A stretch of DNA of 55,271 nucleotides from an uncultured Eubacteriales bacterium (GTDB lineage: Bacteria; Bacillota; Clostridia; Oscillospirales; Acutalibacteraceae): contig OMZU01000006.1 of the NCBI GenBank assembly GCA_900315605.1, positions 1 through 55,271 of the forward strand. Direction: 5' to 3'. The translations under genes were made by a program, and so were the position numbers. Shown piece by piece: positions 30,409 through 55,271 of this stretch (positions within the stretch are counted from its first letter, which is position 1; every line of letters begins with the position of its first letter). The notes beneath the pieces are model-generated. The model did no database searches. It was given only the letters and a program-made list of their open reading frames with translations, and was not told the origin of the DNA.

Positions 30409-30440
30409 CCGCCAGGCGCATTTAGAAACACGCCTGACGG
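30409..30440 (-). terminator. terminator of the pullulanase operon
   Basis: CCGCCAGGCG at 30409-30418 against CGCCTGACGG at 30431-30440. In minus-strand RNA one pair is G-U and five U follow. It resembles in its outer arms the hairpin family at 44-53 kb. Confidence 0.8.
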
Positions 30441-41073: not shown

Positions 41074-41089
41074 TAAGTAAGGCTGTATA

Positions 41090-41182
41090 ACAAGCTTCCT
41101 ACGTCGGCATTACCCGCATCAGGTTAAAGGGTTAAGGCAACACAGCCTACTCTCAGCCCGCTTTTGCGGACTCCCCTGCACT
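41090..41182 (-). ncRNA. TPP riboswitch aptamer (THI element)
   Basis: Minus-strand RNA carries the conserved elements in order: GCAGGGGAGTC (P1 side), GCGGGCTGAGAG, then ACCCTTTAACCTGATGCGGG, and TAATGCCGACGTAGGAAGC. CTGAGA and the ACCTGAT...GGGTAATGCC core are the TPP-binding signature. P3 is short (CCGC-AAAA-GCGG). It controls the four transport genes at 38.1-41.0 kb. Exact ends are approximate. Confidence 0.95.
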
Positions 41183-41186
41183 AATC

Positions 41187-41215
41187 ATTTTACAACTATA
41201 ACCATAATTTGTCAA
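41187..41215 (-). promoter_or_regulatory. promoter of the thiamine transport operon
   Basis: TTGACA (complement of 41210-41215), 17-bp spacer, TAAAAT (complement of 41187-41192). Transcription would start right at the aptamer. Confidence 0.88.
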
Positions 41216-41217
41216 GC

Positions 41218-41487
41218 TTTTTAGTCCGAGAAGAGAACTCGGCGGATAATCCAACACCGGTTGCCCGAAAATGCCTTCATCTAAAAATCACGTTTTTTGA
41301 TCCGAGCAGAGAACTCGGCGTATTGTCAAATACCGGTTGCCCGAAAATGCCTTCATCTAAAAATCACGTTTTTAGGAAAGGGTCATAGAATACTTTTGAT
41401 CCGAGAAGAAAACTCGGCGTATTGTCAAACATCGGTTGCCCGAAAATGCCTTCATCTAAAAATCACGTTTTTAGGAAAGGGGCATAT
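41218..41487. repeat. three tandem copies of an 80-100 bp intergenic repeat
   Basis: Units begin at TCCGAG 41225, 41301 and 41400. Each holds the small hairpin CCGAG-AAGAGAA-CTCGG (copy 2 has GCAGAGA), a GTATTGTCAAA-type segment, CGGTTGCCCGAAAATGCC, and a second hairpin CTAAAAA-TCACG-TTTTTAG. Copies 2 and 3 end in AGGAAAGGGTCAT or AGGAAAGGGGCAT, which can extend the second hairpin by pairing with ATGCC; copy 1 stops at the T run. An open frame through the array (41297-41569) just reflects the repeat and is not treated as a gene. Confidence 0.9.
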
Positions 41488-43462: not shown

Positions 43463-43663
43463 TTATTGTTCCCCGTCCCAGAATAAATCGTCAAGCGATT
43501 TACCAAGCGTGCGGCAAATCGCAATACACAGCTTGATCGTCGGGTTATAATCCCCTTTTTCGATAGCGTTGATAGTTTGCCTGCTGACTCCTACTTTGTC
43601 GGCAAGCTGCTGCTGAGAAAGGTCGAGCGCAGCACGAGCACTTTTCAGTTTAAGATTTTTCAT
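43463..43663 (-). CDS. small HTH regulator (XRE, YozG-like)
   Basis: 66 aa, almost all a Cro/CI helix-turn-helix: LDLSQQQLADKVGVSRQTIN followed by AIEKGDYNPTIKLCIAICRTLG. Very short regulators of this type accompany a small membrane protein gene; here the ATG begins on the base after the membrane gene stop. It probably represses its own operon. Confidence 0.88.
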   Translation of the reverse strand: MKNLKLKSARAALDLSQQQLADKVGVSRQTINAIEKGDYNPTIKLCIAICRTLGKSLDDLFWDGEQ

Positions 43664-44179
43664 TTACTTCTCCGCTCCGCGTTTCTCCAAAACGATTTTA
43701 ATAACTGAGAGGATCCCCAAAGCCAAAAAGCATACCGAGGAAACTAAATAAATAAAGTTTTCTGTCAGCTCACCGTTTTGCCAAAGCGCTTCTCCTCTGA
43801 TGATGTACAACAACAAATGCCCTAGGCCATTTATTCCAAACCAAAAAAAGAATATAATTGAATAAACATTTCGCTTTGTCGAATTAGAGAAATATGCGTC
43901 CTTCATAATACATAAAGCGATAAACAACAAAAATGATATAATGACACCGAGAAACATTTGGATCGCAGTATCAGCCCATCTAACTTCAAAGATATGCAAT
44001 AATCCGCAAGCAGAGCAATAAATAAGCAAGAAGAAAAACGAGCTTTTATAAGCGGCGTTTCTTGCCAAAAGCTGACGTTCATCGTAATTTGCTGTTTTAT
44101 TTCTGAAAAAACGAGCTATTGCAACAAACAAAATCAAAACAACCACAATGATAATCGGGATCAGAACATTTCCACTCAT
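43664..44179 (-). CDS. membrane protein of unknown function paired with the HTH regulator
   Basis: 171 aa from ATG 44179 behind AAAGGAGTG. Five hydrophobic spans: VLIPIIIVVVLILFVAIARF at the N-terminus, then pairs at about 45-65, 75-97, 105-125 and 140-162. A charged loop after span 1 reads NKTANYDERQLLARNAAYKS, a DERQ motif seen in many small membrane proteins next to XRE regulators. No catalytic motif. Function not recognised. Confidence 0.75.
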   Translation of the reverse strand: MSGNVLIPIIIVVVLILFVAIARFFRNKTANYDERQLLARNAAYKSSFFFLLIYCSACGLLHIFEVRWADTAIQMFLGVIISFLLFIALCIMKDAYFSNSTKRNVYSIIFFFWFGINGLGHLLLYIIRGEALWQNGELTENFIYLVSSVCFLALGILSVIKIVLEKRGAEK

Positions 44180-44212
44180 AAAAAACACTCCTTTAAATAT
44201 CTTTACGAGCAT

Positions 44213-44241: not shown

Positions 44242-44296
44242 GTATATTTTACATAAAGTCGCAGATATTTTTATCATTCTGAATTAAAAATAAAAA

Positions 44297-44326
44297 CCGC
44301 CAGGCAGGAGAGATCCTGCTTGACGG
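44297..44326 (-). terminator. hairpin family copy 1, behind the padR operon
   Basis: CCGCCAGGCAGGA and TCCTGCTTGACGG with a 4-nt loop; on the minus strand TTTTTA follows. It lies 71 bases past the stop of the 107-aa gene. Confidence 0.8.
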
Positions 44327-44397
44327 CTGTGACGATCAGATACAAATCAACTCAGATCAACTATCTGATTCATAAAAATCCAAACTCAACTATTTTT

Positions 44398-44721
44398 TTA
44401 TAACGCATATGTCTTATCGCCATTCTGATAAGCTGCATAAATTTTTTCAAGCTCTTTGACCGCAGCTTCTTTTGTCGGATAGCTGTTTAAAACATCCGAA
44501 TGTTGGTTGACGCTGCCGAAAATCGCGAACTTCTTGTCTTTTCCGTTTCCGAAATTGCGCTGAACGGTCAGACGGTTATATTCAGCGCACTTTGTTTTGT
44601 CTTTTGATAAAATAACCATTGTCATTTCCCTTTCCGTAACTTTAGAACTATATGAAATATAAAAGATGACTATAACCATAAAAATAGGAATAATAAAAAA
44701 AGGATAACCCAAAAAAGACAC
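44398..44721 (-). CDS. small membrane-anchored protein of unknown function
   Basis: Up to 107 aa. One N-terminal membrane span (FFIIPIFMVIVIFYISY), then a soluble part with YNRLTVQRNFGNGKDKKFA and YPTKEAAVKELEKIYAAYQN. The start is uncertain: GTG at 44721 has its ribosome binding site (GAAGGG) too close, while TTG at 44712 is better spaced. Third gene of the PadR-DUF2812 unit, 6 bases behind it. Not recognised. Confidence 0.65.
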   Translation of the reverse strand: MSFLGYPFFIIPIFMVIVIFYISYSSKVTEREMTMVILSKDKTKCAEYNRLTVQRNFGNGKDKKFAIFGSVNQHSDVLNSYPTKEAAVKELEKIYAAYQNGDKTYAL

Positions 44722-44727
44722 ACCCTT

Positions 44728-45324
44728 CTATTCATAGATTTCGCTTTCTTTTTGCAATTGCTTCATATTTCGTCGCGCCTTGGCGGTCAGCATGATAGTA
44801 TACGCGCACATACCGATATATATAGCTACGAATATAAAAAACAACACGCAGAAAACATCTAAAATGACCGGAGCCTCGGGAACGGTCATTTTTTCCCCAA
44901 GGATAAGGACGCAATCCAAAATGAGTAAAATTGACAATATGATAAAAACAATACTAAGAGTGCGAAAACGATGATATATTCTTTTTGCACTGTCGATTTT
45001 TTCGGGTGCTTCACAAACAAATTCGGGCGAGACTTCAGCCTTTTTACCTGTAAGATAAAGTATGTCGCCAAAACCGTCCATTGTATGCGGTATGGCTTGG
45101 TAACCGCACTGAGCAGCAAATGAAGAAATCTCCAAAATCTTCTCCTTTGCTGTAGCATGAAGTATCGTAAAATACTCATCCGGCTCGGTCTTTTCAAAGA
45201 TGTAAAGGCAGCCGCCCTTGATATACACAAGCTTCCAGCCTTCCTTGTTCATCTTATTGATAAACTCAAGCTCCTTGTCAAGCGAAAAAAACAATTTAAA
45301 TTTTTTGATATTTACATTATCCAT
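44728..45324 (-). CDS. DUF2812-type membrane protein
   Basis: 198 aa from ATG 45324 behind GGGGGG. N-terminal soluble DUF2812-like domain (KFKLFFSLDKELEFINKMNK then EGWKLVYIKGGCLYIFEK), followed by two membrane spans at about 125-148 and 155-180. DUF2812 genes sit with padR regulators across Firmicutes, but the function is unknown. Its start is 4 bases past the padR stop. Confidence 0.85.
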   Translation of the reverse strand: MDNVNIKKFKLFFSLDKELEFINKMNKEGWKLVYIKGGCLYIFEKTEPDEYFTILHATAKEKILEISSFAAQCGYQAIPHTMDGFGDILYLTGKKAEVSPEFVCEAPEKIDSAKRIYHRFRTLSIVFIILSILLILDCVLILGEKMTVPEAPVILDVFCVLFFIFVAIYIGMCAYTIMLTAKARRNMKQLQKESEIYE

Positions 45325-45328
45325 AGTA

Positions 45329-45634
45329 TCAGCCCCCCAAGATTTCTTCACCGTTTTTAACAAGCTCCCTGAGTCTTTTGAGCTCGGAGTTTAATGCACT
45401 TCTTCCATCCTCTGTTATGATATATTCCTTTTTGGACGGATCGCTTTTGTATTCCGCAATAAAGCCCTTTGAGAGCAGCGTGTTGATCGCTCCGTAGAGC
45501 GTGCCCGCGCCGATATTCACTCTGTCGTTTGTCAGCTTTTTCACATTCTGCATAATACCATAGCCGTGCATTGGCATAAGCAGTGACAGCAGAATGTAAT
45601 AAACAGGCTCGGTCAGTGCGTTTTGTTTTGACAT
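45329..45634 (-). CDS. PadR-family transcriptional regulator
   Basis: 101 aa. Winged-helix repressor of the PadR family: ALTEPVYYILLSLLMPMHGY then GIMQNVKKLT, and the wing GTLYGAINTLLSKGFIAEYK followed by KKEYIITEDGRSALNSE. GAGGTGAT precedes the ATG. It probably represses its own promoter through three dyads upstream, and so controls the DUF2812 protein. Confidence 0.9.
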   Translation of the reverse strand: MSKQNALTEPVYYILLSLLMPMHGYGIMQNVKKLTNDRVNIGAGTLYGAINTLLSKGFIAEYKSDPSKKEYIITEDGRSALNSELKRLRELVKNGEEILGG

Positions 45635-45646
45635 ATTATCACCTCT

Positions 45647-45739
45647 GTTATCGTTCTCCGATATATCAGCTCATGTTATATCGTGTTCCGATATATCGTA
45701 TGTTGTAATAACTATATCACCTTCCGATATATTTGTCAA
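45647..45739 (-). promoter_or_regulatory. padR promoter with three operator dyads
   Basis: Promoter TTGACA (complement of 45734-45739), 17 bp, TATAGT (complement of 45711-45716). Three 19-bp dyads of the form TATATCG-N5-CGATATA, read on the minus strand: 45713-45731 (within the spacer and -10, one mismatch), 45677-45695 (perfect) and 45647-45665 (imperfect). Centres are 36 and 30 bp apart. Binding by PadR is inferred. Confidence 0.8.
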
Positions 45740-45761
45740 GAGTTTTTCAAAAATATCAAAA

Positions 45762-45792
45762 CCGCCAAGCAGGAAATTTCCCACTTGACGGC
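45762..45792 (-). terminator. hairpin family copy 2, behind the alpha/beta hydrolase gene
   Basis: CCGCCAAGCAGGAAA against TTTCCCACTTGACGG. In minus-strand RNA all 15 positions pair with three G-U wobbles; plus-strand RNA would have three A-C mismatches, so the minus strand is the functional one. Begins 47 bases past the stop. Confidence 0.8.
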
Positions 45793-45838
45793 TGTTGCTA
45801 TATTTCTGAAATAGAATTTTAATTCCATTCTCTCCTTA

Positions 45839-46801
45839 TTATTTCAAGTTGCATATCTCCTCAAACACTGCCTGCATTCCGTTCATTCCGGGGATATGGG
45901 AACTGTTTGCTATTACTTTGCAGGTGAGATTTGGGTTTTCTGCTTTTTCAACAAAAGACATGATACTCTTGGTTTCGGTGACTAAATCGGTTTCTCCCTG
46001 CAAGATATGATAAGGCACAGATACGCCTTTCAAAGTATCACGCAGATCAAGCTTTGACAGTTCTGTTATCAGGCTTGTATTTTTCATATAACCGTTTTTT
46101 ACAATTGCGATAAAGTCTTTGAATTTATAGTCCGGACTTGTCATGATTCCGCGAATCATTTCTCCGATTTTAGCTTTGGGTTCATTAGGATCGTTGTAGC
46201 CGTAGGTGTATTTTCGTATTGCACTGCTTAGCTTCAAAGCCGAGCTTTTATTAAATGCTTTGGAATCTGCGGCGGTTTTGATCTCGTCTTTTATTTTTTG
46301 GGGTGCTTTTGAATTCATTACCGCGTCTATGGCTTCTTGGCTTTGCATAAGCTGATAAAGCACCTGACCGTATGTTATCACTCCGTCGATCATTTCGGGA
46401 GAACGTTCACAAGCCATGGCAGACAGCACCGAGCCCCAAGACATTCCCAAAAGCCAAAGGGCATTTTTAGGAAATTTTCTTTTTATTTCCTTAATCAGAT
46501 CGGCAGTCATGTTTACAAAATCATTAATGGAAATGTCATCGGGAAGCTTTGCGTTATTGATTCCGCAGCCGAATTGATCCCAAGACACAAGAATACAGTT
46601 ATCGGTAAAATCGGGAAACAAGCCTCTTGCACCAACGCAAAACGGAATAGGCGTACCGGGACCGCCGTGCAGCGTTATAACAACGGGAAGATCATCGGAT
46701 TTACCTTCTATAAGTACCTTCTGCGGATAACCGCCCAAAACGAACTCTTCAATCGTTGATATCTTGTTTGCTTCTATGACTGCTTTTCTTTTTTTATTCA
46801 T
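45839..46801 (-). CDS. alpha/beta hydrolase, proline-iminopeptidase-like
   Basis: 320 aa from ATG 46801 behind GAGGAAG. Oxyanion motif HGGPG at 45-49, SWDQFGCG near 73-80, nucleophile S121 in GMSWGS, and a late histidine in NSSHIPG. The HGGPG and DQxG motifs are those of proline iminopeptidases (S33), but substrate is not established. No signal peptide, so cytoplasmic. Single gene with promoter and terminator of its own. Confidence 0.85.
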   Translation of the reverse strand: MNKKRKAVIEANKISTIEEFVLGGYPQKVLIEGKSDDLPVVITLHGGPGTPIPFCVGARGLFPDFTDNCILVSWDQFGCGINNAKLPDDISINDFVNMTADLIKEIKRKFPKNALWLLGMSWGSVLSAMACERSPEMIDGVITYGQVLYQLMQSQEAIDAVMNSKAPQKIKDEIKTAADSKAFNKSSALKLSSAIRKYTYGYNDPNEPKAKIGEMIRGIMTSPDYKFKDFIAIVKNGYMKNTSLITELSKLDLRDTLKGVSVPYHILQGETDLVTETKSIMSFVEKAENPNLTCKVIANSSHIPGMNGMQAVFEEICNLK

Positions 46802-46849
46802 CAAGCTTCCTCGTTTCAATTAGTTGTTTTTTGGTTTTTGTTTATATAA

Positions 46850-46878
46850 ATTTTACCATAAATCATAAATATTAGCAA
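46850..46878 (-). promoter_or_regulatory. promoter of the alpha/beta hydrolase gene
   Basis: TTGCTA (complement of 46873-46878), 17-bp spacer, TAAAAT (complement of 46850-46855), 48 bases before the start. Confidence 0.65.
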
Positions 46879-46886
46879 TAGAAAAA

Positions 46887-46916
46887 CCGCCAAGCAGGAA
46901 AATTCCCGCTTGACGG
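46887..46916 (-). terminator. hairpin family copy 3, behind the anti-sigma gene
   Basis: CCGCCAAGCAGGAA against TTCCCGCTTGACGG; fully paired in minus-strand RNA with two G-U wobbles and followed by UUUUUC. 52 bases past the stop. Confidence 0.85.
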
Positions 46917-46968
46917 CTTGAATAATTATTTGGCTTCAAAACAAAATTGTACGTTCGTCGGAACCACC

Positions 46969-47598
46969 TTACTCCGAGAAGAATTCTTCTGAATGTTCTT
47001 CGTCAGATAAAACGATTTTATATTCATCCACTGTGCCGGTGATCGTAAACTTTATTTTGTTGTGGTTATCAACGTCAACGGTGAACTCGGCGTGACCGTC
47101 GGAGAAATCTTCGGTAATATCCTCGCGTATATCTGCCGATATCCAGCTTAAATATACTCTGTTTGATTTCTGAACGACCTTCGGTTCTTTCTCAGCAACA
47201 CATATTTCAATATCTGAATTAGGGTCTATCGCATATTGACCGTCACCTTCGATCCCTTCTTTTATACCGTTTCCGTAATCAATAATAAGTTTCTGAGAAC
47301 CAAACTCGCCGTTTTCGTCATACTTGTCGATCAGCCTTGCATTGTATTCGCCGCCGTTGACGGTTGCGGTCACAAGATGTTCTATCCAAGTCGCTCCCGT
47401 AGCGGCATAAACAACAGCATTGCTCGCTATCAATAAAATCATTATTGCCGCTGCAACATAGATCACTTTTCTGATGACATAGATTTTCTTTTTTGTTTTA
47501 TTTTCAGTCATATTCTGCAACTTCATTATCAGCTCATCAGATGCGTGAACCTCGTCAAGCACGCTTTGGTAAAGCTCGTGTGTATTCTTATTATTCAT
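46969..47598 (-). CDS. single-span membrane protein, probable anti-sigma factor
   Basis: 209 aa from ATG 47598 behind GGGGAGG. A cytoplasmic N-terminal segment of about 44 residues (LYQSVLDEVHASDELIMKLQ), a membrane span at 45-66, and an acidic extracytoplasmic domain rich in beta-strand pattern (HAEFTVDVDNHNKIKFTITG). The start overlaps the sigma factor gene by 8 bases, the classic arrangement of an ECF sigma and its membrane anti-sigma. No zinc-binding ASD (HxxxCxxC) motif is seen, so the sigma-binding part is of another type. The signal sensed is unknown. Confidence 0.7.
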   Translation of the reverse strand: MNNKNTHELYQSVLDEVHASDELIMKLQNMTENKTKKKIYVIRKVIYVAAAIMILLIASNAVVYAATGATWIEHLVTATVNGGEYNARLIDKYDENGEFGSQKLIIDYGNGIKEGIEGDGQYAIDPNSDIEICVAEKEPKVVQKSNRVYLSWISADIREDITEDFSDGHAEFTVDVDNHNKIKFTITGTVDEYKIVLSDEEHSEEFFSE

Positions 47599-48073
47599 AT
47601 AGCCACGCCTCCCCAAGTTTATCCTTTAGCATTTTTCTTGCTCTCATCAGTCTTGTTTGCACATTACTCTCCGATATTCCGAGAACAGAGGCAATTTCAT
47701 CACATTGATAGCTTTCGTAATAGTACAGATGTAAAACCATACTGTATTTTTCCGGAAGCTTCATAATCTCGGCAAAGATCTCATTTTTTTCAGAGTCTAT
47801 GTACTCAGGCTCTTTATCCAGATCGTTGAAAGAAACAACTTTCTTTCGCCAAAAAGAACGCCAAAGCGATTTGCTTTCATTCGCTGCGACCCTGATAAGC
47901 CATTTTCTGATATGATCGTCGTTCTCAAAATCAGCTTCACTTTTCAGCAGCTTCATAAAAGTGTTCTGCGTGATATCCTCTGCGTCACTTTTATTCTTGC
48001 AAAAGCTCAATGCCGAACGGAATACAACATCAGCGTATTTATCAACTATTCTGTTGAATTCGGAAGAGTCCAC
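47591..48073 (-). CDS. ECF-type RNA polymerase sigma factor
   Basis: About 160 aa. Region 2 (VVFRSALSFCKNKSDAEDI then TQNTFMKLL) and region 4 (LPEKYSMVLHLYYYESYQCD then EIASVLGISESNVQTRLMRA) are both complete. The GTG at 48073 fits best because GGGAG lies 8 bases upstream; an ATG at 48079 and longer starts are possible. A TATAAT lies upstream (about 48107) without a good -35. It directs a regulon that cannot be told here and is coupled to the membrane protein behind it. Confidence 0.9.
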   Translation of the reverse strand: MDSSEFNRIVDKYADVVFRSALSFCKNKSDAEDITQNTFMKLLKSEADFENDDHIRKWLIRVAANESKSLWRSFWRKKVVSFNDLDKEPEYIDSEKNEIFAEIMKLPEKYSMVLHLYYYESYQCDEIASVLGISESNVQTRLMRARKMLKDKLGEAWLYE

Positions 48074-48203
48074 AAACATCACTCCCATCTTAGGTATAAA
48101 ACATAGAGTATTATACTTCATTTTTTTGTTCTTGAAAAGCTCTTCATTAATACAACGCTTTGAAATATAAAAATATCACAAAATTTTTTAAAAAAATTTA
48201 AAA

Positions 48204-48238
48204 TGCCGCCAAGCAGGAAAATATCCCACTTGGCGGCA
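48204..48238 (-). terminator. hairpin family copy 4, behind the DUF3021 gene
   Basis: TGCCGCCAAGCAGGA against TCCCACTTGGCGGCA, 5-nt loop, fully paired in minus-strand RNA with two wobbles. It starts 11 bases past the stop and is followed by a U-rich stretch. Confidence 0.85.
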
Positions 48239-48249
48239 TAAAATAATAA

Positions 48250-48714
48250 TCAGCTATTTACAGCATTTGATTTGACTTTGTCGTTGATCGCCCGGATTTT
48301 TTTCTTCATAGCAAAGTACTGACTGAACCAGATGAAGAAATAGATAAAGAAGAAAATAGCGATATAGCCCGCTATACCCCAAAAGCTATGCGGCATCCAG
48401 TACATACAGTATGCAATTGGCAACATTGATACGGAAATGACAAGGCAGTGAATAACCGTTTTCTTCAAAAGGCTCCAGTTTTCCACTTCCCAAATAGCCG
48501 ACGCTCCGCCGAAAGCAGCTCCGTATATCAGAGAGCATATTGTCTGAATGACAACTGCATTCAGTTCATTGCCGCAAAGAGCAGTCAGCTGCGGTACGAC
48601 CGGATAATACTCTCCCTTGTTAATGATTACCGAAATGATAAGCGTGATAAAAAAGCTGATGCTCAAACCGATAGGCGCACCGATCAGGCAGCGTTTAATA
48701 ATTTTCTTTTTCAT
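48250..48714 (-). CDS. DUF3021 membrane protein
   Basis: 154 aa, four membrane spans (about 8-30, 52-70, 85-105, 112-135) with the family pattern RCLIGAPIGLSISFFITLII and CSLIYGAAFGGASAIWEVEN. DUF3021 proteins are encoded directly behind LytTR regulators and restrain them in streptococcal relatives (HdrM/BrsM type). Its start lies 10 bases past the LytTR gene stop. Confidence 0.88.
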   Translation of the reverse strand: MKKKIIKRCLIGAPIGLSISFFITLIISVIINKGEYYPVVPQLTALCGNELNAVVIQTICSLIYGAAFGGASAIWEVENWSLLKKTVIHCLVISVSMLPIAYCMYWMPHSFWGIAGYIAIFFFIYFFIWFSQYFAMKKKIRAINDKVKSNAVNS

Positions 48715-48724
48715 AATTGACCTC

Positions 48725-49165
48725 CTATAAACCTAAGACCTGTTTGATTTTTGACACATAGCGTCTTGAAACATAAGTGGACGTATTGTCAGACAATGTA
48801 ACGCAGATCGTACCGGACAAACTCAGATCAAAGTTGCGTACCTTTTTAAGATTGATGATCTCAGAGTTGGAAATGCGCACAAAGCTGTGCTTGGTCAGTT
48901 GTTCCTCAAGCTCGTATAATCTTTGTCTGAGTACATATTCTTTCTTGTTGACTGTGGCAAAAGTCTTGCCGCCCTCTGCATAAATACGGATAATGTCCTC
49001 CGGCGATAAGATCTCAGCTAAATCATTGTAAAAGCCGGTGATCACTTCAGGCGTTTTTGATGAAAGCGTGTTGAGTATATCTTTGATTTCATCAGTTACC
49101 TTGTCGGTAATGATAATCAACTTAGGCTCAACACAGTTTTCATCGATTTTGATTTCTACCTGCAT
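48725..49165 (-). CDS. LytTR-domain transcriptional regulator
   Basis: 146 aa from ATG 49165 behind AAAGGAGG. N-terminal half has no receiver domain; the LytTR DNA-binding domain fills about 55-146: IIRIYAEGGKTFATVNKKEY, LEEQLTKHSFVRISNSEIIN and LKKVRNFDLSLSGTICVTLS. A stand-alone LytTR activator with a DUF3021 partner matches the LytTR regulatory system (LRS) of streptococci. Direct repeats upstream are likely its own binding sites. Confidence 0.9.
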   Translation of the reverse strand: MQVEIKIDENCVEPKLIIITDKVTDEIKDILNTLSSKTPEVITGFYNDLAEILSPEDIIRIYAEGGKTFATVNKKEYVLRQRLYELEEQLTKHSFVRISNSEIINLKKVRNFDLSLSGTICVTLSDNTSTYVSRRYVSKIKQVLGL

Positions 49166-49190
49166 TGTGTTTTCCTCCTTTGCTGAAAAC

Positions 49191-49260
49191 AGTATATCAC
49201 ACACAGAGAATCAAATCTACTGTTTTTCAATAAGTGGTCGGTTTTTAAATATAAGTGGTC
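49191..49260 (-). promoter_or_regulatory. LytTR promoter with two direct-repeat boxes
   Basis: TATACT at the complement of 49191-49196 has no good -35 box at 17 bp (TAGATT). Upstream lie two identical 10-mers GACCACTTAT (complement of 49230-49239 and 49251-49260), 21 bp apart, near -50 and -70. That is two helical turns, as LytTR activators use, and the weak -35 fits activator dependence. Confidence 0.75.
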
Positions 49261-49277
49261 AACATATAAAATAGCAA

Positions 49278-49309
49278 GCCGCCAAGCAGGAATCATCCCG
49301 CTTGGCGGC
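49278..49309 (-). terminator. hairpin family copy 5, behind the racemase gene
   Basis: GCCGCCAAGCAGGA against TCCCGCTTGGCGGC, 4-nt loop. It lies 117 bases past the racemase stop and directly upstream of the LytTR boxes. Confidence 0.8.
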
Positions 49310-49425
49310 GTTGATTATTATTCTAATAAGGAAATTTATTCTCGCACAAAGCGTGTCTATATAAGCAACATTCCAACAATACATTTTTGCGACACAACCG
49401 GCGATAGAGATTCTAATTCACTAAT

Positions 49426-50124
49426 TTATTCTTTCATCGCTGCAAGTCTGATAAGTTCCCTGATATGAATGTCAACACTGTCCAAACACGGCAAAGCAGC
49501 GTTTGTATCACTAAGGAGCAACGGCAATTCAGTACAGCCAAGGATAACAGACTCTATACCATATTGAGTGCGCATCCTGTCTATAATGGCATTAAACTCC
49601 TGTAATGTCGATTTTTTCACGATACCTATCTCAAGCTCTTCTAAAATTCTTTTTGCGATAAGTTCTCTGTCCTCTTTGCACGGAACAAATACATCTATAC
49701 CAACACTCATCAGATCCTTTTTCATATAATCCTGTTCCATTGTAAACATAGTACCCAGAAGTCCGACTTTTCTATATCCTCTACGTACAGCTTCATCACA
49801 CACTGCCTTCGGAATACTGACAAGCGACACGTTAGTATTCTTTTCTATCTCGTCAAATACTATGTGCATCGTTCCGGCTGTGAGCGTAATGATCTCACAA
49901 CCGGATTGTTTTAGCAGGTTTACCTTTTCAGAAAGATATGATGAAAGCACTCCATATTTTCCGCCTGAAACATAGTCCCATGCTTTCCGAAAATTGACGC
50001 TTTCAATGGCAATATCCGGCATTTCTTTTCCGCCAGTAAGATAATCAATTCTTGAATTCAATTCCTTATAATACATCAGCGTTGACTCAGGTCCCGTTCC
50101 GCCGACTAAACCTATTTTTTTCAT
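49426..50124 (-). CDS. aspartate/glutamate racemase-family protein
   Basis: 232 aa from ATG 50124 behind AGAGG. Cofactor-independent racemase fold: GLVGGTGPESTLMYYKELN at the N-terminus and the second catalytic cysteine in ILGCTELPLL. The first catalytic motif, usually CNT, reads AGT in ITLTAGTMH, so the first cysteine is missing. E. coli L-Asp/Glu racemase also lacks it (Thr instead). One-way racemisation or loss of activity are both possible. It lies 22 bases behind the DJ-1 gene. Confidence 0.85.
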   Translation of the reverse strand: MKKIGLVGGTGPESTLMYYKELNSRIDYLTGGKEMPDIAIESVNFRKAWDYVSGGKYGVLSSYLSEKVNLLKQSGCEIITLTAGTMHIVFDEIEKNTNVSLVSIPKAVCDEAVRRGYRKVGLLGTMFTMEQDYMKKDLMSVGIDVFVPCKEDRELIAKRILEELEIGIVKKSTLQEFNAIIDRMRTQYGIESVILGCTELPLLLSDTNAALPCLDSVDIHIRELIRLAAMKE

Positions 50125-50146
50125 ATTTACCTCTGAAGAGTCGTTA

Positions 50147-50728
50147 TTATTCAAAAACATCACATTCCTTATTGCTGTTCCAAAAATACTCTATATCGAA
50201 AGCGATTTGTTTAGCTTTTTCAATTCCAAACAAATCGCTGATAAAACCGAGCGACATATCCATCCCTGCGGAAACGCCCGAAGAAGTATAATACTTTTCA
50301 TCAACAACCCAGCGTGCTTTTTTGATCCAATTGACATTTTGAGAAATGGATCTCACCCAATCAAACGCTTTCTTGTTCGAGGTAGCGTTTCGTTTGTCAA
50401 GTACGCCTGATTTAGCTAACAATGCCGATCCCGTACAAATTGATAGCACGTTTTCTGCTCTATCACAAAGATTTCGCAATGTTTTGATAAACAATTCATT
50501 CGACACAAGACTTCTTGTTCCCTGACCGCCGGGAACAACTACAATGCTGTTTGGAGCGATTCCAGTTATTGATTCAGTTTGAGTGTAGAAGCCTTGTTTG
50601 CTTTTAATCATTCCGCCTGATAAGGAAATGTAATGCAATTTTACCTTTTCAATTCGTGATAAGATTTCAACCGGACCAAAAACATCAAGCGTTTCAAAAT
50701 CTTCAAATAAAAGAAAGTATATATCCAT
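50147..50728 (-). CDS. DJ-1/PfpI-family protein
   Basis: 193 aa. Class I glutamine-amidotransferase-like fold with the nucleophile elbow C98 in SICTGSALLAKSG and the acid E21 in DVFGPVEILS. These two residues define the DJ-1/PfpI/isonitrile-hydratase group. The stretch YTSSGVSAGMDMSLGFI is typical of the regulator-like AraC-fused branch, here without the AraC part. Substrate unknown. Operon with the racemase. Confidence 0.88.
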   Translation of the reverse strand: MDIYFLLFEDFETLDVFGPVEILSRIEKVKLHYISLSGGMIKSKQGFYTQTESITGIAPNSIVVVPGGQGTRSLVSNELFIKTLRNLCDRAENVLSICTGSALLAKSGVLDKRNATSNKKAFDWVRSISQNVNWIKKARWVVDEKYYTSSGVSAGMDMSLGFISDLFGIEKAKQIAFDIEYFWNSNKECDVFE

Positions 50729-50767
50729 GAAGAGTACCGCCTTGGAGGTTTTACAAATAATTTCTCA

Positions 50768-51223
50768 TTATAATTTGAACTGCATAAAGTTATTGTTTTT
50801 CTCAAAGCCAAAATCAGAGTATAACAGAACACCCATATCGGAAGCGGTGATTTGAACGGTGCCGCACCCCTGTTTTCGGGCTTCGACAACTACCTTTGAA
50901 AGCAATGTCTTTGCGATACCTTTCCTTCGATAGGCTTTATCTGTAAACATACTTGACAACAGTCCGATTTTACCGCTTGGGCAACCGAAATACGGCGGCT
51001 TTTCCACGATAGACATTCCGCTTGTGCCGATAATCCTATCGTTATCTAAAGCAAGCCACGAGATAAACGTACCGTCTGACAAATGACGAAGATAATAATC
51101 TCTTAAAGTAGGCTCAAGGTCAATTTCATCCTTTGCACCTTCCTCACGCAGTTGATGAATGCGCATTTTAATGAATGTATCAAGATCATTTTCTGTTAGT
51201 TTTCTGTATGTAATGGTCATCAT
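50768..51223 (-). CDS. GNAT-family N-acetyltransferase
   Basis: 151 aa. Acetyl-CoA-binding motif A: LLSSMFTDKAYRRKGIAKTL, where RRKGIA is the pyrophosphate loop. N-terminal YRKLTENDLDTFIKMRIHQL is typical. Substrate unknown. Its ATG begins on the base after the stop of the broken HAD gene, with AGGTGAG as ribosome binding site, so it belongs to the same transcript. Confidence 0.88.
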   Translation of the reverse strand: MMTITYRKLTENDLDTFIKMRIHQLREEGAKDEIDLEPTLRDYYLRHLSDGTFISWLALDNDRIIGTSGMSIVEKPPYFGCPSGKIGLLSSMFTDKAYRRKGIAKTLLSKVVVEARKQGCGTVQITASDMGVLLYSDFGFEKNNNFMQFKL

Positions 51224-51808
51224 CTCACCTAAATAATTCTGTTATCTCCGCTAAATTATTGACTATATAATCGGGTTGTTCTTCTACTGTTTTCGGCTCT
51301 GCGTAACTGCCGAACCCTTGTTTGATCCACACGGTTGTCATTCCGATTTTGTTAGCCGGGATAATATCGTTGTCGATTCTGTCGCCGACCATTAAGCAAT
51401 TTGGAAAATCCGCAAATCGGGCTTTGCTACGCCCTCCTCGGCAGAGGCGATAACAAGATTAATGTATTGATGTACATTGAAATCCATTAATCTTTGCTCA
51501 GTTCCGAAATCCTGATTTGCTATTATCCCGATTTTATATTTTTGGCTGAGCCTTTGCAATAATTCTTTTGTTTCGGGGTACAGGACTTCTAAATCATGAC
51601 GCCACGCAGGAACCTTCACTCCGTAATCTTTTGCTACCGACATAATCGGTCTTGGGTCAGTTTGAGCACGCTGTATAACCTTTGCGACAAACTCATTTTT
51701 GTCGATATTATTACTTTGCGTTATTTCCTCGATTCTGTTTTCATAGACTGCGCTTTCGTCAACCAACGTTGAGCCTATATCAAAGAAAATCCATTTCGGT
51801 TTATTCAT
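51224..51808 (-). pseudogene. HAD-family hydrolase with internal deletion and frameshift
   Basis: The first 138 codons (51808 to 51392) have HAD motif I FFDIGSTLVDE, motif II-like GIIANQD, and motif III GVAKPDLRIFQIA, then a stop. The rest, MVGDRIDNDIIPANKIGMTT followed by VWIKQGFGSYAEPKTVEEQPD, continues in another frame and ends at 51224. A typical HAD needs about ten residues between FQIA and the LMVGDR motif IV, so a short deletion has removed them and shifted the frame. Both halves are otherwise well preserved, so the loss is recent (or an assembly error). Confidence 0.8.
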
Positions 51809-51814
51809 ATAGTA

Positions 51815-52627
51815 TTATTTCAACCTTCCATAAGCATTTCTTATTACCCCACCCGAAAGAATATACTTTTTCATATTTCTTTGCAAAGAGGTATTTTCGG
51901 GAAGCATAGCATAATCAGTTGATTTTGTATTATACAACCATTCGATAAAATCTGTCCCGATTTCACCCTCGTTGAAGATCTCAAATCGGTTTTGAAAGCT
52001 AAGTATATTTGAGCTATCTTTTAGCATTTTCCTTAACTGTTTATCCAAAAGCCAAGAGTGACAACGATATTCAGCATTTGACAGTTCACGATAATATGCA
52101 GCGAAAAAGTGCTTTGCACTGGCTAAAGAGTCATCAATAGCAAAAGGTGAGAAGTCAACGTTCGACGGAATATGAATTCCAATGACAATATCATCGCCAA
52201 TATGCTTCATTTCATATTCTAACTCACCGATTCTGAACAGGTGACATCCTGCCTGACGAGTCGTCCACCAATAGCGGTCAAAAAACAGCTTACCTGTCAT
52301 TTTATAGGTTTCGTCAATAAAGCGAGGATAACACTTCATTGTGGCGAAGTAAATCTCATCGCTGATACCTTTTTCTCTGTAAATATCGTACACATCCACA
52401 GATGCTTTCAGCATACAGGCAAGGATCTTTATATTATCGGTATCCTCGCCGAGTATTGTTTGAAGCTCTGCCAATGCATCAGACATCTTTTCGTAATTCT
52501 GAAAATCTCTTAATTGATTGGTCACTGTTGAAAAATCAAAATCATTTGCAAACTCAATTACGCAAGATTTGATTTCGGGTTGCAGATTGATTTTATCACA
52601 TAAGGTTAAAATATTCATATTCTTCAT
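51815..52627 (-). CDS. NAT_N/GNAT_C-type acyltransferase-domain protein (DUF5596-like)
   Basis: 270 aa. The N-terminal third (ILTLCDKINLQPEIKSCVIE) and the C-terminal domain with FDRYWWTTRQAGCHLFRIGE then LEYEM, followed by IGIHIPSNVDFSPF, match the paired NAT_N and GNAT_C domains of a family annotated as acyltransferase domain-containing. Biochemical role unknown. Starts at 52627 or at 52618 (MNILTL) are both possible; the Shine-Dalgarno is weak. First gene of the 52.6-49.4 kb run, 6 bases before the HAD gene. Confidence 0.72.
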   Translation of the reverse strand: MKNMNILTLCDKINLQPEIKSCVIEFANDFDFSTVTNQLRDFQNYEKMSDALAELQTILGEDTDNIKILACMLKASVDVYDIYREKGISDEIYFATMKCYPRFIDETYKMTGKLFFDRYWWTTRQAGCHLFRIGELEYEMKHIGDDIVIGIHIPSNVDFSPFAIDDSLASAKHFFAAYYRELSNAEYRCHSWLLDKQLRKMLKDSSNILSFQNRFEIFNEGEIGTDFIEWLYNTKSTDYAMLPENTSLQRNMKKYILSGGVIRNAYGRLK

Positions 52628-52697
52628 CTTTCAAATGAATGTATCAAAAATCATATTATCATTTTACCACGAATCCGAAAATATGGCAATAGAAACC

Positions 52698-52730
52698 GCC
52701 GCCAAGCAGGAGATTATCCCACTTGACGGC
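52698..52730 (-). terminator. hairpin family copy 6
   Basis: GCCGCCAAGCAGGA against TCCCACTTGACGGC, 5-nt loop, paired in minus-strand RNA with wobbles and followed by GGTTTCT. It lies 44 bases past the stop of a 45-codon open frame at 52775-52912. Confidence 0.75.
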
Positions 52731-52760
52731 TGTACTTATAATTCTAATTTAGAAGTGTAA

Positions 52761-52805
52761 TGGTGCGAAGTCGTTTATCCTCGTTTGGTGCGAAGTCGTC
52801 TATCC
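52761..52805. repeat. two 20-bp direct repeats
   Basis: TGGTGCGAAGTCGTTTATCC at 52761-52780 and the same with one change (C for T) at 52786-52805, period 25. They overlap the end of the small minus-strand open frame. Confidence 0.8.
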
Positions 52806-52912
52806 GCAGTGTTCTCCCGTCCTTCGCCTTCGTTCACCCTCCGCTCGCCACCTTCCCGCACGCTATCGCGGCTTAGAAGACGGCTCGCTTCGGTTCCTTC
52901 TCTTTCCCTCAT
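52775..52912 (-). CDS. possible 45-aa Arg/Glu-rich small protein
   Basis: ATG at 52912, preceded at 8 bases by AAGGAG, opens a 45-codon frame rich in Arg and Glu (MREREGTEASRLLSRDSVRE then GGERRVNEGEG). No known family. It lies 12 bases behind another short basic frame, and a family terminator hairpin follows 44 bases after its stop. The region is compositionally biased, so it may be non-coding. Confidence 0.25.
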   Translation of the reverse strand: MREREGTEASRLLSRDSVREGGERRVNEGEGRENTADRRLRTKRG

Positions 52913-52924
52913 TACCCTCTCTCC

Positions 52925-53041
52925 TTAGTCTAATTCCCTTAATATTCGCCATTTATTCTTCTCTCTTCTTCTCTCTTCTTCTTTTTTCTTCTCTTTTCTT
53001 CTCTTTTCTTCTTCTCTTCTCTTTTTCTCTTCTTTTCTCAT
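52925..53041 (-). CDS. possible 38-aa Lys/Arg/Glu-rich small protein
   Basis: ATG at 53041 opens a 38-codon frame, MRKEEKKRREEEKRRKEKKK then EEERRR and WRILRELD. It would be a highly charged helix. It is the direct reading of a purine-rich simple repeat, which is reason for doubt; GGAG lies about 17 bases before the start. No family recognised. Confidence 0.2.
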   Translation of the reverse strand: MRKEEKKRREEEKRRKEKKKEEERRREKNKWRILRELD

Positions 53042-53070
53042 TTTTTCTTCGTTTTTCTCCTATTTCCTAT
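52950..53070. repeat. polypyrimidine (TTCTCT) low-complexity tract
   Basis: About 120 bases of almost pure C/T on the plus strand in irregular TTCTCTTCTT units. It has the look of slipped-strand microsatellite expansion. On the minus strand it is polypurine and could form a triplex or H-DNA. It is part of the 52628-53400 stretch that has no confident gene. Confidence 0.85.
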
Positions 53071-53153
53071 AGAGGGAGATACGAGTACGAGAGAAAGACG
53101 GGACTTTAACTTACCGAATTTCTGAAATGTAATCAGGCTTTCAGAGCACGAAA

Positions 53154-53208
53154 AAAAGCCTTAGCCAAAGGTGCGCCACTTTGCGGCATCCATTGGCACA
53201 AGGCTTTT
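53154..53208 (-). terminator. terminator of the guaA transcript
   Basis: AAAAGCCTT at 53154-53162 and AAGGCTTTT at 53200-53208 with an inner CCAA/TTGG pairing; seven T follow on the minus strand. It lies about 190 bases past the guaA stop. Confidence 0.75.
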
Positions 53209-53244
53209 ACTTATGTTGTTGTTTGTCCGTCTTTCTCCTGGATA

Positions 53245-53329
53245 GATTCTGAATTTGACCCCGCTATGAAGGGATATAACTTAGGTCGATTCGGAATCTC
53301 AACCCCGCAATAAAGGGATATAACTTAGG
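53245..53329. repeat. two tandem 42-bp repeats in the guaA 3' region
   Basis: Units at 53245-53285 and 53288-53329 share GATTC-GAAT, CCCCGC and AAGGGATATAACTTAGG (the last 17 bases identical). They sit between the guaA stop and its terminator, so they would be in the 3' untranslated RNA. Two units are too few for CRISPR and the full unit is repeated with no spacer. Confidence 0.85.
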
Positions 53330-53400
53330 CTCCGAGGATACTTCAGTTCGCATCATTTGGAGTTTTTGAGGTTAACCGAGAGTGAATGAGGACAAGAAGT

Positions 53401-54381
53401 TTATTCCCACTCTATCGTTGCACAAGGCTTTGGTGTGAGGTCATAGAGTACTCTGTTTACGTTTTCTACTTCAGCTGTGATCCTTGCGGTAATGTGTTCG
53501 AGGAGCTCGAACGGAACGTTCTCAACAGTTGCTGTCATTGCGTCTGTTGTGTTGACCGCACGAATTATTACCGGATAGGCAAAGGTGCGCTTGCCGTCCT
53601 TTACGCCGACTGATTTAAAGTCCGGAACAGCGGTAAAATACTGCCAAACCTTGCCCTCCAAGCCGTTCTTGGCAAATTCTTTGCGGAGGATCGCGTCGCT
53701 CTCGCGAACTGCTTCGAGCCTGTCTCTTGTAATCGCGCCAAGGCAGCGAACGCCGAGACCCGGTCCGGGGAACGGCTGACGGAATACCATATTGTCCGGC
53801 AAGCCGAGAGCTTTGCCGACAACTCTTACCTCGTCCTTAAAGAGAAGCTTGACCGGCTCAACAAGCTCAAACTGCAAGTCCTCGGGAAGTCCTCCAACAT
53901 TGTGGTGCGCCTTTACGCCGTCACTTTCGAGAATGTCGGGGTAAATTGTGCCCTGAGCCAAAAATTCAATGCCGTCGAGCTTTCTTGCCTCTTCTTCAAA
54001 AACGCGAATGAACTCTGCACCAATGATCTTTCTCTTCTTTTCAGGCTCTGCAACGTTTGCGAGCTTGTCCAAAAAGCGGTCAACCGCGTCAACATAAACG
54101 AGGTTGGCGTTCATCTGGTTGCGGAACACCTCAACAACCTGCTCAGGCTCGCCCTTGCGCAAAAGTCCGTGATTTACGTGAACGCAAACCAATTGCTGAC
54201 CGATCGCTTTGATCAAAAGCGCGGCAACAACCGAGCTGTCAACTCCGCCGGAAAGCGCGAGAAGCACCTTTTTGTCGCCGATTTGTTCTCTGAGCTCCTT
54301 GACCTGCTCGTCAATAAAGGCATTTGCAAGCTCGGGAGTAGTGATTCTTTCCATGGTTTCGGGTCTGACATTTCCCTGCAT
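53401..54381 (-). CDS. guaA: GMP synthetase, ATP-pyrophosphatase domain only
   Basis: 326 aa. Converts XMP to GMP with ATP and ammonia. The PP-loop SGGVDSS is at 44-50, then [44 protein letters not shown], and the C-terminal dimer domain [20 protein letters not shown] ending [11 protein letters not shown]. The N-terminal glutamine amidotransferase domain of ordinary bacterial GuaA is absent; the protein opens with a short leader ([20 protein letters not shown]). It resembles the two-subunit archaeal GuaAb form. No separate amidotransferase gene is in the window. AGGAGG precedes the ATG. Confidence 0.92.
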
Positions 54382-54485: not shown

Positions 54486-54515
54486 AGACCTTGCGGGATT
54501 TCTCCTGCAAGGTCT
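54486..54515 (-). terminator. terminator hairpin next to the intron
   Basis: AGACCTTGC and GCAAGGTCT form a 9-bp perfect stem with extra inner GGA/TCC pairing; on the minus strand TTTTTTG follows. It faces a gene that would lie beyond the intron. On the plus strand the intron starts five bases past the stem. Confidence 0.85.
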
Positions 54516-54520
54516 GATTT

Positions 54521-55271
54521 GTGTTTGCCCAGAATGGGCAGCAACTTGGTGGTGAAAGTCCACTACACGCTTGGCAGTAGGAAGTGTTAGCTGAGGGCAA
54601 GGGTGTCCGTTGTGAAGCGGAATCTGAAGTAAGCCTAAGGCAAACTCTCGGTCTGACGAACAGAAATCGCATATAAGGCATACGCGGGGCGGACGAGTCT
54701 GCCTAACAAGACAAAGTCCCATACTGCCCGAACCCCGTGGTGTAAATGCGGCGGATATATGAGAGGATGGTTGCTGTTCTTAACTGGGGAGGTCTTGCAG
54801 CTGTGACGAAGGACAGAAAGATTGACACCCGTCAAACCCGTGCAGTGATGTACGGCTGGGCTGCAAGAAGTCAGCAGAGGTCATAGTACCGAAAAAAATT
54901 CGGGAAGGACCGAACAATAGTAGTCTTGGAAACGAAGGAGGAAAGAGCAATGCAAAGACCACAGAAAACGGCGCAAGCCGGCTGTCCCTGTGAGGGTATG
55001 GTGGAAACAGAGAGTAACAGGGAAGCGTGCAGTATTGTTTTGACTGAAACGGACAGAAGAGACGGTGCAGAGGATTTGCTGGAAAGGATACTTGACAGAA
55101 ATAATCTGAACAAGGCATACCTGAAAGTAAAGAGAAACGGAGGCTCGGCGGGAGTAGACGGAATGACGGTCGGCGAAATGCTGCCATACCTAAAGGAACA
55201 CCGCGAGGAGTTACTGACCGCATTAAGAAACGGTTGGTACAAGCCGCAGGCAGTACGCAGGGTAGAAATAC
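54521..55271 (+). mobile_element. group II intron, 5' part (continues past the window)
   Basis: The 5' end reads GTGTTTGCCCAGAATGGGC, close to the GUGYG consensus of group II introns, followed by the structured domain I sequence (GGTGGTGAAAGTCCACT, CTTGGCAGTAGGAAG, AGCTGAGGGCAAGGGTGTCC) seen in clostridial introns. A reverse transcriptase gene begins at 54950, in domain IV. The position just downstream of a stem-loop terminator is the habit of group IIC introns. The 3' end is outside the window. Confidence 0.88.
54950..55271 (+). CDS. ltrA: group II intron reverse transcriptase/maturase (5' part)
   Basis: The first 107 codons from ATG 54950 (AAGGAGGAAAG ahead); no stop before the window end. 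Residues about 45 onward match the RT0/RT1 region of intron-encoded proteins: DLLERILDRNNLNKAYLKVK, NGGSAGVDGMTVGEML, and NGWYKPQAVRRVEI. The short leader before it (MQRPQKTAQAGCPCEGM) is poorly conserved. It is needed for splicing and retrohoming of the intron. Finger, palm and thumb domains lie outside. Confidence 0.9.
   Translation, partial: MQRPQKTAQAGCPCEGMVETESNREACSIVLTETDRRDGAEDLLERILDRNNLNKAYLKVKRNGGSAGVDGMTVGEMLPYLKEHREELLTALRNGWYKPQAVRRVEI

Follow-up and report, generated by a model that had tools for sequence, protein, structure and literature searches.

The DNA analysed here, hereafter the window, is the whole 55,271-nucleotide contig OMZU01000006.1 of an uncultured Eubacteriales bacterium of the family Acutalibacteraceae (assembly GCA_900315605.1, the own genome). 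In a strip between 44 and 53 kb, six copies of one hairpin separate small groups of genes, called here modules, that follow a guaA-like gene. We consider it probable that this strip is an integron-like accretion array at guaA, in which modules are stacked and jointed by copies of the guaA 3' region. Hairpin joints, a common direction of the modules and their presence, absence or reordering at the hairpin were observed, as were modules that are nearly identical between distant species. Accretion at a gene end is known already, whereas terminator-promoter joints, very small modules and shuffling across a genus are apparently new. The preliminary description of this DNA had proposed a spreading terminator cassette; something does spread, but the evidence points to the gene modules, with the terminator as their joint.

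The six hairpins of the window

Copies 1 to 6 of the hairpin occupy positions 44287-44329, 45752-45794, 46877-46919, 48196-48239, 49269-49311 and 52689-52732 of the minus strand and score 56.5, 59.1, 61.7, 62.5, 55.6 and 60.6 bits, respectively. Copy 1 lies between the PadR/DUF2812/107-aa and the HTH/membrane-protein modules, copy 2 between the hydrolase and PadR modules, copy 3 between the sigma/anti-sigma-like and hydrolase modules, copy 4 between the LytTR/DUF3021 and sigma modules and copy 5 between a five-gene module and the LytTR/DUF3021 module. The hairpins are real: their arm CCGCCARGCAGGA is matched without mismatch at 44297, 45762, 46887, 48206, 49279 and 52699. With up to two mismatches, this arm gave 13 matches against 1.55 expected, and the two-arm pattern was expected 0.00 times (100 dinucleotide shuffles). 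For every copy, the predicted fold is more stable in minus-strand RNA (-21.8 to -30.9 kcal/mol) than in plus-strand RNA (-11.0 to -26.8 kcal/mol). A simple terminator scan of the minus strand called five of the six, with a GC-rich stem of 14-16 pairs and a loop of 4-5, and missed copy 1; a T-rich tail follows the stem to a varying degree in copies 1-5, and copy 6 carries GGTTTCTATT. Judged by fold, strand and position, the six hairpins are most likely intrinsic terminators read on the minus strand, which supports the preliminary description in this respect. Its distance of 11-117 bases from a stop codon holds for copies 1-5 (about 70, 46, 50, 11 and 117) but not for copy 6, which lies about 670 bp (672) from the nearest upstream minus-strand open reading frame (ORF) of 60 aa or more, the guaA-like gene with its end at 53401. 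A looser relative had also been placed at 30409; it scored 15.9 bits (E 0.016 in the window), was absent from the 34 places listed genome-wide at E≤10, with 150 of 555 candidates scored, and is not counted as a family member. Rfam matches in the window at the gathering score were limited to two domains of group II introns and one TPP riboswitch, with none for the hairpin.

A covariance model was built from eight copies of the own genome. The copies counted below are 105 better-strand places in 36 genomes, hand-picked from 194 both-strand matches with the weaker places of the genus search left out. The previously noted G-U cells in minus-strand RNA, which are A-C cells in plus-strand RNA, were found in the window as described, together with the single mismatch of copy 1. 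Over the 105 copies, 219 cells were G-U in the RNA sense and 37 were A-C; the values were 68 and 35 once two family-wide wobble pairs had been removed. Among 69 distinct rows, the covariation score was reached by 30 of 500 shuffles and the number of pairs changed on both sides by 136 of 500. The eight own-genome copies gave no covariation signal (269 of 500 shuffles). The excess of G-U pairs earlier read as selection on the RNA fold is present, but it supports such selection weakly and covariation is weak.

Module content and order differ at the hairpin

Comparison of the window with locus L064 by blastn gave two matching blocks, window 44398-45794 with L064 7212-5814 (84.1%) and window 48184-49341 with L064 5870-4761 (81.8%). 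Both blocks converge on one L064 hairpin, at a place where the window has three, and copies 2 and 4 are the block boundaries. The LytTR/DUF3021 and PadR/DUF2812/107-aa modules are shared, and the 2.4 kb that the window has in addition holds the sigma/anti-sigma-like and hydrolase modules. Similarly, L076 and L055 are 94.6% identical over 1548 bp on the side of the guaA-like gene and 99.1% identical over 535 bp in the following region; the two blocks meet in one L055 hairpin, and L076 has an extra LytTR/DUF3021 module of 1.2 kb. The comparison of L073 with L119 is weak on one side (right 95.1% over 667 bp, left 69.2% over 686 bp). Module order also differs, being LytTR-PadR-GNAT in L064 and PadR-GNAT-LytTR in L069. 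It should be noted that many candidates from the flank-similarity search for such empty-site pairs were false, since all class-0 joints have the guaA block in common; only pairs checked by blastn were kept. Among the candidates listed by this search, which looked for module gain only, no gain of a hairpin alone in otherwise identical flanks was found.

Linkage between the flanks was counted over 103 copies, two with short flanks being left out. The LytTR right-flank class (9 copies) follows four left classes, the HTH/membrane right-flank class (9 copies) follows five and the promoter right-flank class (17 copies) follows 11; in the other direction, 13 right classes are found behind the TnpV-like left class (16 copies). 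The left flank of window copy 1 recurs in genome L050, where another right flank follows. Along the joint, linkage with the left flank extends as far as the 5' foot of the hairpin, and strong linkage with the right flank sets in at the 3' foot, with some in the loop.

Regarding orientation, 26 of the 28 neighbouring pairs within 5 kb point in the same direction, with a median spacing of about 1.1 kb. Of the two exceptions, L078:4216 may be miscalled: its promoter block and its hairpin call are on opposite strands. The upstream ORF is on the same strand in 76 of 93 callable copies, at 150 bp or less in 50 of these 76, but on the opposite strand in the other 17.

The modules were then compared with guaA of the same genomes. 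The GNAT module shows 97.6-98.9% identity among genomes G002, G046 and G070, against 74.5-75.0% for their guaA genes; the corresponding values are 97.6% and 71.4% for the HTH/membrane module of G046 and G083, and 97.2% and 82.5% for the PadR module of G075 and G070. The window LytTR module is 86.0-88.8% identical to those of the four partners with guaA, against 72.2-76.8% for guaA. The window PadR module reaches 84.7-85.2% with G075 and G070 (guaA 76.5-76.8%) and 77.2% with G012 (guaA 72.2%), and the window HTH/membrane module is hardly above guaA (72.4-80.2% versus 72.5-76.5%). The small modules of the window were probably borrowed.

The joint resembles the 3' region of guaA

The hairpin begins 23-32 bp past the stop of guaA in 16 distinct loci, with a short palindrome, TTCTAATTTAGAA, in between. 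Because of this position, the source of the hairpin can be named as the putative terminator of the guaA 3' intergenic region, which comprises the stop, the palindrome, the terminator and sometimes a promoter. Among 30 full-length guaA loci taken by score alone, eight carry the hairpin there (one of them half of it only), nine have repeats like integrase arm sites, 12 have other sequence and one meets a contig end. Joints with a different upstream gene also carry the guaA block. The palindrome block is kept in 41 of the 105 copies, those behind guaA included, and the core GAGTGGGA is present exactly in 24 joints and with one mismatch in eight (32 in total, with guaA's own). In core-bearing joints, similarity to other joints starts at GAGTGGGA, and the genes to the left are unrelated.

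A promoter-like block directly follows the hairpin in 17 copies from 12 genomes. The first genes behind it fall into 14 groups without blastp similarity, two of which are both methyltransferases by Pfam. Searched alone in 12 genomes, the block occurred 12 times in eight of them; 11 occurrences adjoin a listed hairpin and one adjoins a broken hairpin, and the reversed control pattern occurred 0 times. Palindrome block, hairpin and promoter stand together in six of the 105 copies. As a side observation, the promoter-class modules of L066, L056, L083 and L065 hold nucleotide-related enzymes (NUDIX+HD, adenosine deaminase, HD_3 and a nucleoside phosphorylase family protein) behind guaA-derived joints, perhaps by chance.

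Parts of this anatomy can be recognised on the minus strand of the window. An exact match to the conserved promoter block (TTGCCA, 17 nt, TAAAAT, with TG before the latter) follows copy 6 at 52661-52691, and a diverged one (right-flank class 0, not within 8 mismatches) follows copy 3 at 46850-46879. Remnants of the guaA 3' untranslated block adjoin copy 2 (45795-45833; diverged, left-flank class 0, palindrome block within 5 mismatches), copy 5 (49312-49345; GAGAATAAATTTC, short of the full core) and copy 6 (52733-52754; the palindrome TTCTAAATTAGAA). The guaA-like gene at 53401-54381 (326 aa) is without the amidotransferase domain, and its end carries GAGTGGGA (53405-53412). A second, full-length guaA-type gene of 514 aa lies on contig C27 of the own genome (L081 5067-6611) and is 51% identical to the 326-aa form over the shared part; several genus genomes have the short form only, and several have both forms close together. 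Between the guaA-like gene and copy 6, about 660 bp (52740-53400) are without a minus-strand ORF of at least 60 aa and hold a tract rich in T and C (52950-53050) as well as two copies, at 53258 and 53302, of the 28-nt repeat ACCCCGCWATRAAGGGATATAACTTAGG.

Integrase-bearing elements end at the same core

Three PF00589 loci (predicted tyrosine integrases) were found in the own genome. One belongs to a mobile element on contig C55 that also encodes NikA-like, Mob_Pre and AAA proteins. The left end of this element lies directly behind GAGTGGGAATAA, as in L072, where a related element directly follows guaA; both left ends stand directly behind the core GAGTGGGA. Similar starts follow guaA in L146 and L151.

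This arrangement has precedents. According to the available text of PMC9376610, the integrase of the proteobacterial GIsul2 uses the integration core GAGTGGGA at guaA, and in a recA-deficient host it also mobilises, by excision and insertion, an inner cargo unit flanked by two GAGTGGGA cores. The GIsul2/CR2-sul2 system is like the present one in its guaA target, its 8-bp core and its inner unit between two cores, but it is a large proteobacterial island with one inner unit whereas here modules of 1-3 kb stand in a row, and a terminator-promoter joint is not described in that available text (PMC9376610). Stacking of decayed integrative elements at one gene end by successive integration is described, in the accessible part of PMC5704250, for tandems of cis-mobilizable elements with integrative and conjugative elements (ICEs) or integrative mobilizable elements (Pavlovic 2004 and Bellanger 2011, cited there). 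The tandem stacking is alike, and the elements there have lost integrase and transfer genes and kept their att sites (PMC5704250); by contrast, the repeated unit here includes the terminator of the target gene and sometimes a promoter, the modules are very small, and many joints no longer have the att core but still mark where exchange occurs. Streptococcal ICEs with a tyrosine integrase insert at the exact 3' end of guaA (PMC4701971, available text); they share integrase type and target with the elements described here but are whole conjugative elements. The ssrA islands of Dehalococcoides likewise use one conserved gene end and a related mobilization mechanism, with the tmRNA as target (PMC3146451, available text). 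Searches limited to open-licence PMC papers found no description of terminator-jointed arrays at guaA.

A model for the array at guaA

In the model that we favour, the joint block would be the end of guaA (the GAGTGGGA core and the stop) followed by the short palindrome, the terminator and sometimes a promoter, and modules of 1-5 genes, all in the direction of guaA, would be stacked behind guaA or a guaA-like gene with one joint between each. Modules would enter as core-bounded segments, and a copy of the intergenic region behind guaA would arrive with each of them. The segments would be moved by a tyrosine integrase acting on GAGTGGGA and supplied by integrative mobilizable elements at the same site, an entry step that we infer from the anatomy of these elements and from precedent. 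After decay of the core, further exchange would proceed by ordinary recombination between joint copies, as is suggested by the core-less joints that still shuffle. Transcription of a module would stop at the joint behind it, and joints that retain the promoter block would also start transcription of the next module, so that a newcomer would be insulated from guaA and from its neighbours. Since the cores of the window have decayed, its array is probably old. As the integration core is already known from other bacteria, the integrase step is directly testable.

A bolder version, which we regard as somewhat unlikely, is that of an integron-like gene-cassette system grown from the end of a housekeeping gene, in which the joint is terminator, promoter and recombination site at once and a cassette is one or more genes plus one joint. 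In that version, new genes could be acquired, arranged and expressed next to guaA throughout this gut-bacterial genus, without an integron integrase. If the array is what we propose, the genus, which includes relatives of Ruminococcus bromii, would have a single site for gathering small genes and would need no integron for it, each newcomer being insulated by a stop signal and sometimes given a promoter. A repeated terminator would then be tied to gene flow, and the hairpin could be used as a probe for mobile modules.

Several observations weigh against the favoured model. None of the six window joints contains the core GAGTGGGA, either exactly or with one mismatch; as the core is not at both ends of the window modules, these are not intact elements. 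In many joints the hairpin directly follows another gene (TnpV-like, DUF3021, GNAT) and no trace of the guaA block is seen, so that core recombination alone cannot explain the arrays. The strip is without a recombinase gene, and excised circles are not visible in assembled genomes. Change-point fits could not place the exchange point inside the hairpin: they gave column 8 or 9 for pairs of copies sharing a left flank and columns 15-36 for pairs sharing a right flank, with wide bootstrap ranges. No excess of identity was seen for the HTH/membrane module with G075 (71.6-74.4%, guaA 72.9-79.7%) or for the GNAT module of G075 and G070 (79.0%, guaA 82.5%), and guaA is a single marker that may itself have been transferred.

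A substantial possibility is that there is no site-specific step, the joints being homologous repeats of about 35-120 bp between which general recombination with conjugated or transformed DNA inserts, deletes and reorders modules. Exchange points anywhere within the hairpin would fit this explanation, as does the shuffling of core-less joints (left classes 1-4). So do the broken hairpins: half-hairpins were found at two places only, L153 and L077, with breaks near the loop, and a broken hairpin in L226 has its break in the 5' arm. However, similarity at core joints begins at GAGTGGGA beside unrelated left genes, integrase-bearing elements end at this very core, and 35 bp is a short homology for general recombination.

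Comparison with integrons

No integron integrase scored above the TIGR02249 cut-off in any of the 100 genus genomes. Weaker matches occurred in 95 of them and are expected of any tyrosine recombinase, because all 14 control genomes match too. The boxes of integron attC sites, RYYYAAC and GTTRRRY, were absent from the joint consensus read by eye. Membership of the integrons was ruled out on these two grounds. Integron cassette arrays are made of small, mostly one-gene units in one direction, with stem-loop joints of less than 150 bp and a cargo of enzymes and small regulators. These features are common to both, whereas the array at guaA differs in the integrase and boxes just mentioned and in a joint derived from the end of a housekeeping gene.

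That the hairpin DNA is itself a dedicated recombinase site, like attC, with two inverted arms and a variable centre, seems to us unlikely. The switching of modules at the hairpin, the common direction of 26 of 28 neighbouring pairs at a median spacing of 1.1 kb and the single-gene enzyme cargo would all agree with such a site; on the other hand, no integron integrase passed the cut-off in the 100 genus genomes, no hairpin-tied recombinase was found, and the G-U strand bias fits RNA rather than DNA.

Distribution of the hairpin

Counted on the better strand, the family has ten strong places in the own genome (2.42 Mb), and this 8.4-kb strip accounts for six. The other four are one on contig C27, 28 bp behind the full-length guaA, one on C55 beside the mobile element, one on C71 behind a TnpV-like remnant and one on C69 near a contig end. 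Of the 100 genus genomes, 42 match at E≤1e-4 and 58 are without a copy at this threshold; in a family-wide draw, five of 199 other genomes match at the stricter E≤1e-7. A scan of 84,980 species with an exact pattern gave 57 stretches, whose titles name Ruminococcus, Ruminococcaceae, Oscillospiraceae, unnamed Clostridia, Clostridiales, Bacillota and bacteria, and one Gastranaerophilales metagenome-assembled genome. The latter (L205, labelled Candidatus Gastranaerophilales) has three family hairpins, at 465, 1537 and 4756, which would reflect cross-phylum transfer or a misplaced contig. The preliminary description had named copies equally common inside genes or in the opposite orientation as counter-evidence to its proposal. 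This outcome was not seen: eight of the 105 lie within automatically called ORFs of at least 80 aa, and 26 of 28 neighbouring pairs point in one direction, although the 17 upstream ORFs on the opposite strand point the other way. The copies of right-flank class 4 (L054, L088, L089, L110 and L111), with a flank like that of L079 (5266), are solitary hairpins outside arrays.

Pairwise identity of copies was 0.813 within genomes (207 pairs) and 0.807 between genomes (5253 pairs), a difference reached by 489 of 2000 permutations. Copies of one genome are therefore no more alike than copies of different genomes, which argues against a terminator multiplying inside a genome. A small interspersed repeat that copies itself within genomes, in the manner of miniature inverted-repeat transposable elements or repetitive extragenic palindromes, as first proposed for this DNA, would account for ten strong copies in one genome with six of them clustered. 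We nevertheless hold it to be improbable, given this identity result and given that whole modules come and go rather than hairpins alone and that left-hand and right-hand genes both change at one joint. Vertically inherited neighbouring operons with terminators homogenised by gene conversion are very improbable, as the partial order LytTR, PadR, HTH/membrane common to the window and L064 stands against the same lack of excess similarity, the different order in L069, the 58 genus genomes without a copy, and modules 97-99% identical between distant species (guaA 71-83%), which refute this explanation unless guaA is a poor clock in those pairs.

Gene content of the window modules and neighbouring features

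All modules of the strip are on the minus strand. The first (43463-44212) encodes an HTH_3 regulator (43463-43663) and a membrane protein without a Pfam match (43664-44212), and the second (44398-45634) the 107-aa protein, a DUF2812 protein and a PadR regulator. The two modules absent from this place in L064 are an alpha/beta hydrolase (45839-46819) and a sigma-70 family factor (47591-48121) with a protein without a Pfam match (46969-47616), together 46969-48121; the latter protein is anti-sigma-like by position only. They are followed by the LytTR regulator and DUF3021 protein (48250-49204) and by a five-gene module (49426-52627) encoding an Asp/Glu racemase family protein, a DJ-1/PfpI protein, a GNAT protein, a HAD protein whose frame is interrupted and a GNAT_C/NAT_N protein. 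The HAD-type hydrolase gene (51225-51808) is apparently divided into two ORFs, split at about 51392, perhaps by a frameshift. The earlier term "small regulatory modules" suits some of these modules, but several modules hold a single enzyme gene.

Elsewhere in the window, the stretch 41079-41486 holds a TPP riboswitch on the minus strand and, immediately upstream of it, three repeats of about 93 nt (41219-41486). Near the contig end, the stretch 54486-54910 holds group II intron domains (Rfam RF02001 and RF01998) on the plus strand. Group IIC introns typically sit behind terminators, and a terminator-like stem whose inner part resembles the hairpin (21.6 bits) is located at 54486-54515, just before these domains.

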